A DNA stretch of 35,301 nt, taken from Comamonadaceae bacterium. Its GTDB lineage: Bacteria; Pseudomonadota; Gammaproteobacteria; Burkholderiales; Burkholderiaceae_C. The translations under genes were made by a program, and so were the position numbers. This document shows, piece after piece, positions 7,648 to 30,993 of the stretch. Within the stretch, counting starts at the first letter, position 1; each line of letters starts with the position of its first letter. The stretch is from contig CANFHZ010000016.1 of assembly GCA_947446885.1 (NCBI GenBank), positions 1 through 35,301 on the forward strand, read 5' to 3'. The notes under the pieces are model-generated. The model was given only the letters and a program-made list of their open reading frames with translations. It did not search any database and had not been told where the DNA came from.

Positions 7648-8805
7648 ATGGCCAACATTCTGTACATCACCTCTATCCAAATCGATTTCGGCATTCTCAG
7701 CACCCTGGCAGATGAGTGCGCAAAAGCCGGAATCCATCGTCCCTTGATCGTCACGGACCCGGGCGTCAAAGCCGTGGGCATTTTGCAAAAGGCACTCGAC
7801 GCGCTGCCGGGACTGGATGTGGCGGTTTTTGACCAAACGCCCTCCAACCCCAACGAGGCGGCCGTGCGCGCCGCGGTCTCGGTTTACCACGCCCACCAGT
7901 GCGACGGGCTGATTGCTGTGGGCGGCGGCTCATCGATCGACTGCGCCAAGGGTGTGGCGATTGCCGCCACCCACCCCGGCCCGCTCACCACCTACGCCAC
8001 CATTGAAGGCGGCTCGCCCAAAATCACGGCCGCTGTTGCCCCGCTAATCGCCGTACCCACCACCGCCGGAACCGGCAGCGAAGTCGCGCGCGGAGCCATC
8101 GTGATCGTGGACGATGGGCGTAAGCTGGGTTTCCATTCCTGGCATCTGGTGCCCAAGGTCGCCCTGCTGGACCCGGAACTCACCCTGGGCCTGCCGCCCG
8201 GCCTGACCGCTGCCACCGGCATGGATGCGATTGCGCATTGCATGGAAACCTTTATGGCCGCGCCCTTCAACCCGCCGGCTGACGGTATCGCGCTGGACGG
8301 GCTGACGCGCGGCTGGGCGCACATCGAACGCGCCACCACCAACGGGCAAGACCGGGACGCGCGCCTGAACATGATGAGCGCCTCGGCCCAGGGCGCGCTG
8401 GCGTTTCAAAAAGGCCTGGGCTGCGTGCATTCGCTCAGCCACAGCCTGGGCGGTGTCAACCCCCGCCTGCACCACGGCACCCTCAACGCCATGTTTTTAC
8501 CGGCGGTGGTCCGCTTCAACGCCCACGCCGAATCGGTACAGCGTGAACGCCGCCTGGAGCGCATGGCCTACGCCATGGGACTGGGTGCCATTGAGGGCGC
8601 AGCACCCGCCGCCGAAGCCATTGCGCAGGCCATCGTCGCCATGAACGCGCGCCTGGGCCTTCCCACAGGCCTGGGCGCCATGGACGTGGAGCGCGCCTGG
8701 TTCGACAAAATCGTCGAAGGCGCGCTGGCCGACCACTGCCACAAAACCAACCCCCGCATCGCCAGCCCGGCGGATTACCGGGGGATGCTGGAGGCGGCGA
8801 TGTAG
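7648..8805 (+). CDS. Iron-containing alcohol dehydrogenase
   Basis: 385-residue group III alcohol dehydrogenase. The N-terminal nucleotide-binding domain has VGGGSSIDCAKG (about residues 91-102) and PTTAGTGSEVAR. The C-terminal domain carries the metal ligands: D193 and H197 in GMDAIAHCMETF, and histidines around 261-265 and 275-276 in HSLSHSLGG...HHGTLNA. The family uses NAD(P)H to interconvert aldehydes or ketones and alcohols. The substrate is not deducible: ethanol, 4-hydroxybutyrate and lactaldehyde are all possible. No related pathway genes flank it. The ribosome-binding site is weak. An 11-bp hairpin lies just after the stop. Confidence 0.93.
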   Translation: MANILYITSIQIDFGILSTLADECAKAGIHRPLIVTDPGVKAVGILQKALDALPGLDVAVFDQTPSNPNEAAVRAAVSVYHAHQCDGLIAVGGGSSIDCAKGVAIAATHPGPLTTYATIEGGSPKITAAVAPLIAVPTTAGTGSEVARGAIVIVDDGRKLGFHSWHLVPKVALLDPELTLGLPPGLTAATGMDAIAHCMETFMAAPFNPPADGIALDGLTRGWAHIERATTNGQDRDARLNMMSASAQGALAFQKGLGCVHSLSHSLGGVNPRLHHGTLNAMFLPAVVRFNAHAESVQRERRLERMAYAMGLGAIEGAAPAAEAIAQAIVAMNARLGLPTGLGAMDVERAWFDKIVEGALADHCHKTNPRIASPADYRGMLEAAM

Positions 8806-8812
8806 GTTTCCG

Positions 8813-8840
8813 GCGCAGCTACCAAGTTGGGTAGCTGCGC
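8813..8840 (+). terminator. Perfect 11-bp hairpin after the alcohol dehydrogenase gene
   Basis: GCGCAGCTACC and GGTAGCTGCGC form an uninterrupted 11-bp stem with a 6-base loop, 7 bases beyond the stop codon. No U-run follows, so it may be a Rho-assisted or U-less terminator, or a 3'-end stabiliser, rather than a classical intrinsic terminator. Confidence 0.55.
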
Positions 8841-9010: not shown

Positions 9011-9325
9011 ATGAAACGACTGCTTTACGGCTTGGCGCTGTGCGCCTTATGGACCCTGACCCATGCTGCGAACAACGCGGGCCGATGGACCGCGCTGATG
9101 GCTGATGAATGGGCGACGCCACCGTTGGCCTGCGCTCTACCGTTTGCAAATTCTGAGGTAGGGGCAAGCCCACGGCCTCAGGTGCTGGCCGCCAACGCCA
9201 ACTGCGCATCCGACTGCGAATCCCGCCTGGAGTTGTGTTTGAAAGAAGCCAAGACCGACGCCATACGGGATAAGTGCAAGGTCTACTTCAAGGGCTGCAT
9301 CAAGACCTGCAGCCAGAGCAAATAA
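9011..9325 (+). CDS. Small secreted cysteine-rich protein with mirror-symmetric Cys spacing
   Basis: 104 residues. A clear Sec signal peptide (MKRLLYGLALCALWTLTHA) has a likely cleavage site after THA, so the product should be periplasmic or secreted. The C-terminal 40 residues hold six cysteines spaced C-x3-C-x6-C-x12-C-x6-C-x3-C, a palindromic pattern. It is predicted to be mostly helical and charged between the cysteines. I do not recognise the family. The spacing suggests an antiparallel helical hairpin clamped by disulfides, which is inference. A second small exported cysteine-containing protein is encoded convergently just beyond it. Confidence 0.8.
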   Translation: MKRLLYGLALCALWTLTHAANNAGRWTALMADEWATPPLACALPFANSEVGASPRPQVLAANANCASDCESRLELCLKEAKTDAIRDKCKVYFKGCIKTCSQSK

Positions 9326-9356: not shown

Positions 9357-9384
9357 CGCTCCAAGCCGCATGCGGCTTGGAGCG
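9357..9384. terminator. Perfect 28-bp palindrome between convergent genes (bidirectional terminator candidate)
   Basis: The 14-base half CGCTCCAAGCCGCA is followed directly by its exact reverse complement. It lies 31 bases after the stop of the plus-strand secreted-protein gene and 34 bases after the stop of the minus-strand gene. RNA from either strand would fold into a long GC-rich hairpin. There is no U-run on either side. Confidence 0.65.
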
Positions 9385-9418: not shown

Positions 9419-9724
9419 TCAGCGGATCAATTGCTTGACTCTTTCTTCCACCGTTTTGGCGCACACCGCCGTAGACGACATGAACACGCGCGATATCTTG
9501 GTTTTGTCCGGGTCTTCGCAAACATAACGGCAAGCGGTCAGGCCCATGCCCGATTCGCTGGTCTCACGGGTGTCCAGATTGCATTTGGCTGAAACGATCC
9601 GGTAGTCTTTCTTGGCCTTGTCTTTATCAGCGGCCCAGGCAGCGCCTGACAACGCAAGAGCGAGGGCAGCGCCGCTCAACACCGTAGCGTGCCAGGGTCT
9701 TGCCAGGCCGATCCGCAAGGCCAT
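9419..9724 (-). CDS. Small exported hypothetical protein with four cysteines
   Basis: 101 residues from the ATG at 9724. GGAGGAG five bases upstream favours this ATG over the GTG one codon earlier. An Ala/Leu-rich signal peptide ends near AAWA-ADKDKAKK. The mature part has four cysteines (one, then a C-x3-C pair, then one) and a basic C-terminus. No family was recognised. The start overlaps the stop of the preceding 84-aa ORF (TGATG), so it is the last gene of the pepA-holC cluster. It converges on the other small secreted protein gene across the palindrome. Confidence 0.75.
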   Translation of the reverse strand: MALRIGLARPWHATVLSGAALALALSGAAWAADKDKAKKDYRIVSAKCNLDTRETSESGMGLTACRYVCEDPDKTKISRVFMSSTAVCAKTVEERVKQLIR

Positions 9725-9978
9725 CACAACTCCTCCGCAACGGCCGTCTTGGCGATCACACCGGGCAGGCGGGCGTACACGCGGCGGGTCATGCGCTGAA
9801 CTTCTTCCTGGATCACGGCCTGCACGGCATCGCTCAAACGTGCCTCAAAACCCGAGCCAGCCGCATCTACAGGGCGCATTGCCGCGCGGGGACGACGGGC
9901 TTTGCGCACGGCCCGCTTGAGCGTGGGTACCGCATCACTTGCAGGCAGAGCGGCGCGGTTCACAGGCGCATTCTTCAT
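9724..9978 (-). CDS. Hypothetical 84-aa protein downstream of holC
   Basis: Short basic, Ala/Arg-rich protein with a helical C-terminal half (GFEARLSDAVQAVIQEEVQRMTRR is too long to be chance helix only, by eye). No signal peptide or known domain was recognised. The ATG overlaps the holC stop by 4 nt (ATGA), and its stop overlaps the next start, so it is translated as part of the pepA-holC operon. A role with the replisome is suggested only by position. Confidence 0.7.
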   Translation of the reverse strand: MKNAPVNRAALPASDAVPTLKRAVRKARRPRAAMRPVDAAGSGFEARLSDAVQAVIQEEVQRMTRRVYARLPGVIAKTAVAEEL

Positions 9979-30456: not shown

Positions 30457-30993
30457 TCAGACCTGCGGGTCGGCTGATTGGGGCAGGCTGCGCCACCGCG
30501 CCAGTACAAAAACCAGCGCCGCTATGGCCAAAGCGCAAAAGGCCAGAAATGACCAGTTCGCTACCGAACCGCCGAGCAAGGTCCAATCGACCTTGGTGCA
30601 GTCGCCACTGCCGCGAAAAATCATGGGAATGGCCCGCTGCAGCGGGAAGTTCTCGACCATGCCGTAAAAGTCGCGTCCGCAGCTGGCGACCTCGGGCGGG
30701 TACCACTGCAACCAGCTTTGGCGCGCCGCCACAAACGCGCCACCTGCTGCGAATAGCACCACGCCCAAGCCCGCAGCCAGGTGCGCCCCGCGTTTTCTGG
30801 AAGCAGCGCCCAAGGCGGCGCATGCCGCCAGCAGCACCATGGCGTAGCGCTGCACGATGCACATGGGGCACGGAACCAGACCGACAAGTTCTTGCAAATA
30901 CAAGCCGTAGAGCAGCAAACCGGCCACCGCCGCCACACAAGCCAGCAACACACGGCGCGGCGCGTTATTGCATAGAGCGAAAACAAGATCCAC
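30457..30993 (-). CDS. dsbB: Disulfide bond formation protein B
   Basis: Inner-membrane quinone reductase that reoxidises DsbA. The start is placed at GTG 30993 because AAAGGA lies 7 bases upstream and the family begins just before NNAPRRV; the tracked ATG adds 22 residues. The 178-aa product has four transmembrane helices, the first periplasmic CxxC (VPCPMCIVQRY) and the second cysteine pair (VASCGRDF and GSGDC). It could help oxidise the small cysteine-rich exported proteins in this window, which is speculation. Confidence 0.92.
   Translation of the reverse strand: MDLVFALCNNAPRRVLLACVAAVAGLLLYGLYLQELVGLVPCPMCIVQRYAMVLLAACAALGAASRKRGAHLAAGLGVVLFAAGGAFVAARQSWLQWYPPEVASCGRDFYGMVENFPLQRAIPMIFRGSGDCTKVDWTLLGGSVANWSFLAFCALAIAALVFVLARWRSLPQSADPQV

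Follow-up and report, generated by a model that had tools for sequence, protein, structure and literature searches.

Plant alpha-hairpinins are antiparallel helix-loop-helix peptides of 30-50 residues in which a CXXXC...CXXXC pattern is closed by nested C1-C4 and C2-C3 disulfides (PMC7191063). Mitochondrial CHCH (twin CX9C) proteins and the small Tims likewise form a helical hairpin with nested disulfides, which a dedicated oxidation relay introduces once the protein is outside the reducing compartment (PMC7909247, PMC3759932). The Csp copper proteins (DUF326, Csp1/Csp3) are four-helix bundles with more than a dozen reduced thiols per monomer (PMC10155185, PMC12510493); their cysteines bind Cu(I) and form no disulfides (PMC10155185), and the exported members (Csp1) carry a predicted Tat signal (PMC12510493, PMC10155185). 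Here, we describe a gene encoding a small cysteine-patterned protein, predicted to be exported, in a 35,301-nucleotide stretch of a Comamonadaceae genome (the window; contig CANFHZ010000016.1) and compare it with these systems.

The open reading frame begins with ATG and encodes a product of 104 amino acids, consisting of the predicted signal peptide MKRLLYGLALCALWTLTHA followed by ANNAG...LAANANCASDCESRLELCLKEAKTDAIRDKCKVYFKGCIKTCSQSK (Table 1). The sequence-only reading had described an exported protein with mirror-symmetric cysteine spacing, and the translation reproduces that pattern exactly, as C65-x3-C69-x6-C76-x12-C89-x6-C96-x3-C100. The count of six holds for the spaced set and fails as a total, since the protein has eight cysteines overall; the two that had gone unmentioned are C11, which belongs to the signal peptide, and C41, located in the mature linker. 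Given six cysteines in a 36-residue span, the naive probability of a palindromic order is about 0.003, a post hoc figure; the evidence that the pattern matters is its conservation rather than this probability.

Table 1. Features of the window at and around the six-cysteine gene (positions are those of the window)
Feature	Position	Strand	Basis
Iron-containing alcohol dehydrogenase (ADH)	7648-8805	+	Pfam; synteny; adjacency alone
Gene for six-cysteine protein, predicted exported helical hairpin	9011-9325	+	Translation; homologues with kept cysteines; dN/dS
Predicted Sec signal peptide, cleavage after THA	9011-9067	+	Sequence; similar N-termini of homologues
Linker with extra C41, poorly conserved, low confidence	9068-9202	+	Missing from L003-L005 (65 aa); pLDDT 37-48 over most of it
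Six-cysteine hairpin domain, C65 to C100, spacing 3-6-12-6-3	9203-9310	+	Sequence; conservation; dN/dS; AlphaFold2; geometry fit
Predicted helix 1 (residues 65-79) with C65, C69, C76	9203-9247	+	AlphaFold2
Predicted helix 2 (residues 83-102) with C89, C96, C100, basic stripe K90/K94/K98 and Y92	9257-9316	+	AlphaFold2; conservation
Inverted repeat, perfect 2 x 14 bp, no spacer, between convergent genes	9357-9384	.	Sequence
Convergent small exported protein, 102 aa, four cysteines	9419-9727	-	No Pfam match
DsbB	30511-30957	-	Match on window contig

Within the genus of the window, 7 of the 103 genomes searched carry a homologue of the hairpin gene, counting the window itself (the other six being loci L002, L003, L004, L005, L006 and L007), and a profile built from the seven sequences recovers those seven and no further ones in the 103 genomes. 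One homologue (L061) comes from a public MAG that bears the label 'Comamonas sp. lk', a name assigned to Comamonadaceae in the NCBI taxonomy. Profile searches found no relatives in 350 genomes of the class and only weak, scattered matches, with E values above 0.029, in 401 genomes of the family; ten of the latter were translated and proved to be non-relatives, most of them being frames that overlap another gene or run antisense to one. No match was found in viral contigs or plasmids. The family thus appears confined to one lineage, although the homologues of so short a protein are easily missed.

All seven homologues keep the six cysteines in identical register while identity to the window domain drops to 46%, so that the loss of cysteines in homologues, which had been set as a test of the pattern, did not occur. 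Further invariant positions (window numbering) are K78, A80, T82, K90, Y92 and K94, and the N-terminal part of the protein is unconserved. Across the six-cysteine segment, dN/dS is 0.053 for the window and L062, 0.024 for L063 and L064, and 0.049 for L064 and L065, indicating strong purifying selection on the reading frame and on its cysteines. These low ratios in close pairs, together with conserved synteny, rule out a spurious open reading frame, and by such comparative measures the gene represents a real, strongly conserved family. With respect to known families, a Pfam search of the protein returned none, its match to MNNL being non-significant (E 0.31).

The protein is predicted to be exported via Sec. 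Its signal peptide lacks a twin-arginine motif when read by eye, the cysteine within it does not appear to lie in any proper lipobox, and the homologues have equivalent hydrophobic N-termini that end in A-x-A or similar. Three homologues (L003-L005) are predicted to mature to just 44 amino acids, barely more than the hairpin itself, with a pI of 8.6 and a net charge of +3. These short forms carry exactly six cysteines, which means that all of them can pair. The window protein has an additional, unpaired C41, a point against the disulfide reading.

AlphaFold2 predicts a helical hairpin both from the full-length single sequence, with helices at residues 65-79 and 83-102 and a pLDDT of 77-84 over these blocks, and from the 44-residue domain together with one relative (pLDDT 89, about 96 in the helix blocks, pTM 0.63); the input is shallow, the domain model resting on two sequences, and oxidation is not modelled. 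Helix 2 is predicted to be N-capped at the invariant T82. The helical hairpin proposed from the letters is therefore what the predictions return, and a non-helical fold was not seen. A two-helix hairpin is an easy default outcome for structure predictors, and for this reason the conserved phase of the cysteines is a stronger argument than the models. A Foldseek search of the hairpin model against the PDB gave nothing significant (best E 3.7), which we attribute to the shortness of the query.

On a helical wheel (100 degrees per residue), C1-C3 fall at 0, 40 and 20 degrees and C4-C6 at 0, 340 and 20 degrees, so that all six lie within 20 degrees of one helix face, in agreement with the earlier claim that the first three and the last three cysteines each share a face. 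When two ideal antiparallel helices are fitted, only the pairing C1-C6/C2-C5/C3-C4 places three Cb pairs at 3.9 A each (fit score 0.00, compared to 9.3 for the runner-up pairing and at least 73 for the remaining ones). For the rungs of a ladder to line up between antiparallel helices, helix 2 must repeat the offsets of helix 1 in reverse order, which yields the mirror symmetry. However, randomising the position of only the middle cysteine in each helix gave an equally good fit in 31 of 150 cases; in this idealized model, the geometry is compatible with the ladder and discriminates between pairings, yet it does not single out the 3-6-12-6-3 spacing. Of the three rung-like disulfides suggested previously, the pairing thus stands as the sole one to fit an ideal hairpin, and the rungs themselves, C65-C100, C69-C96 and C76-C89, are what we infer from the fit.

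The 3-6-12-6-3 cysteine pattern was also scanned for in 399 genomes of the same order. The hits were mostly CTG/GTT repeats read in the wrong frame, and the genuine cysteine-frame matches recognised among the fetched loci, the window aside, were Csp3-type proteins (L054, L055, L056 and L058), which match solved Csp3 structures with E 1e-14. Helices 3 and 4 of these proteins contain the 3-6-12-6-3 subset, plus further cysteines of their own. Since Csp proteins share the spacing without forming disulfides, the spacing alone is no proof of rungs. Unlike the Csp bundle, the hairpin family has six conserved cysteines and two helices per chain; the protein has no DUF326 match in Pfam, and comparison of the hairpin profile with Csp helices 3-4 gave an hhalign probability of 1.3%, i.e., no similarity.

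Among the disulfide-stapled hairpins, alpha-hairpinins share the antiparallel two-helix architecture that AlphaFold2 predicts here, but they are a plant family with four cysteines and two disulfides, compared to six and, by our inference, three in the bacterial hairpin. Two CX3C motifs are present in the bacterial protein, yet two more invariant cysteines lie between them, so it is not an alpha-hairpinin, and no sequence similarity to solved alpha-hairpinins was found. The resemblance to CHCH proteins that had been pointed out, with different spacing, holds for the logic only. CHCH proteins and small Tims are built on CX9C/CX10C or CX3C twin pairs and mitochondrial import, whereas the present family is bacterial, predicted to be Sec-exported, and patterned as CX3CX6C-x12-CX6CX3C; twin CX9C motifs are absent, CX3CX6C and CX6CX3C occur in all homologues, and no CHCH-type Pfam profile matches the protein even at E 10. 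The helical cysteine domains of GDNF receptor alpha show a weak resemblance around C-x12-C (E 0.31); kinship was rejected, as the match is non-significant, the full spacing is missing, and these are eukaryotic multidomain receptors.

The window contig has a match to DsbB, and three DsbA-family matches are found elsewhere in the genome. From what is established about the Dsb pathway, a cell equipped in this way would be expected to oxidise an exported protein whose invariant cysteines are even in number, as they are here. We favor, as the moderately probable reading, a Sec-exported, Dsb-oxidised, three-rung hairpin that presents a conserved stripe to an envelope ligand or partner. Such a small envelope protein would have as its functional unit an antiparallel alpha-helical hairpin of about 40 residues, in which periplasmic DsbA/DsbB would oxidise the six cysteines to the three rungs named above, with the ascending offsets 0, 4 and 11 of helix 1 meeting the descending offsets 0, 7 and 11 of helix 2. 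The rungs would stand in for a hydrophobic core, a substitution by which a 44-residue chain could stay stable outside the cytoplasm. K90 and K94, both invariant, and K/R98 point outward in the predicted hairpin. Flanked by Y92, which is invariant as well, they would form a stripe on helix 2 that the rigid hairpin offers to a protein partner or to an anionic ligand in the envelope. Use of this lysine stripe as a rigid binding scaffold is a speculative and doubtful element of the reading, drawn from conserved residues.

The main rival is a minimal Cu(I) hairpin, in which the thiols would stay reduced and two hairpins would associate into a cysteine-lined four-helix bundle with a copper core, each amounting to half a Csp. 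That Csp3-type proteins of the same order bear exactly this subset on helices 3 and 4, and that the six hairpin cysteines all lie on one side, speaks for it. We nevertheless consider it unlikely, as the profile comparison with Csp helices finds no relationship, the hairpin has neither a Csp-like His motif nor Met ligands nor extra CxxC cysteines on the face, the twin-arginine signal of exported Csp1 is lacking, a Sec-exported protein exposed to DsbA should be oxidised, and no copper genes adjoin the hairpin gene. Csp is thus best seen as a parallel in structure, and the copper mechanism as live yet less likely. Very unlikely, in our view, is a secreted antimicrobial or inhibitor peptide resembling the alpha-hairpinins, i.e., a stapled cationic hairpin directed against competitors or proteases. 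The architecture is the same in miniature (two antiparallel helices, nested pairing, short length; PMC7191063), and the pI and net charge of the 44-residue forms would fit, but the charge is just mildly positive, the domain shows strong purifying rather than diversifying selection, and no exporter or immunity gene was recognised nearby, the neighbors being housekeeping genes in conserved synteny.

The gene neighborhood raises another explanation, a two-gene unit with the upstream ADH, in which the hairpin might, for instance, act as a sensor in the envelope or as a protective factor co-expressed with aldehyde/alcohol metabolism. The ADH gene lies immediately upstream of the hairpin gene in all five syntenic genomes (the window and L062-L065). 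In the window, L062, L064 and L065, the hairpin gene is followed by the convergent small exported protein, HolC, PepA, LptF and LptG; the contig of L063 stops shortly past the hairpin gene. The locus copy of ADH (window 7648-8805 and loci L125-L129; 84-100% identity) is confined to these five genomes, and no other genome of the genus has a copy that exceeds 80% identity along its length; the next full-length match in the genus reaches at most 79%, and a common copy of 74% identity is also present in three of the five. This distribution suggests that the two genes may form a two-gene insertion. At the corresponding site in G344, where the neighbors are related, both ADH and hairpin gene are missing. 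From the ADH stop to the hairpin start there are about 45 bp in L063-L065, so that co-transcription is possible there. Against such a unit, the gap in the window is 205 bp and holds a perfect 11-bp stem, the diverged homologues L006 and L007 adjoin a nitroreductase, indicating that ADH is no obligatory partner, and the co-occurrence may simply be common descent; we regard a functional unit with ADH as quite unlikely. The stem (8813-8840, with a 6-nt loop) sits right behind the ADH stop codon and has no T run. Downstream of the hairpin gene, the perfect inverted repeat between the convergent genes is a possible bidirectional terminator. That the hairpin protein works together with the convergent exported protein was considered and set aside, as relatives of the latter turn up in 35 of the 103 genomes of the genus (twice in some of them), and most of these genomes lack the hairpin gene.

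Returning to the stapled, Dsb-oxidised hairpin, we consider it an even call that this is a new bacterial family in which a palindromic cysteine order gives a three-rung ladder on an antiparallel hairpin with almost no hydrophobic core. In bacteria it would have arisen independently of its counterparts, the plant alpha-hairpinins and the mitochondrial CHCH proteins, and as a folded protein exported by a Gram-negative bacterium it would be very small. If the ladder is true, bacteria would have independently reached the stapled helical hairpin of the mitochondrial intermembrane space and of plant defence peptides, with one rung more than those hairpins and a spacing set by simple geometry. In that case, the 44-residue forms would be useful as model substrates for DsbA/DsbB and DsbC, with three nested disulfides in one hairpin, and usable as rigid scaffolds in protein design. 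Furthermore, since the Csp copper bundles have the same spacing in reduced form, a clean comparison could be drawn of the roles that compartment and context play in the choice between thiolate and disulfide.
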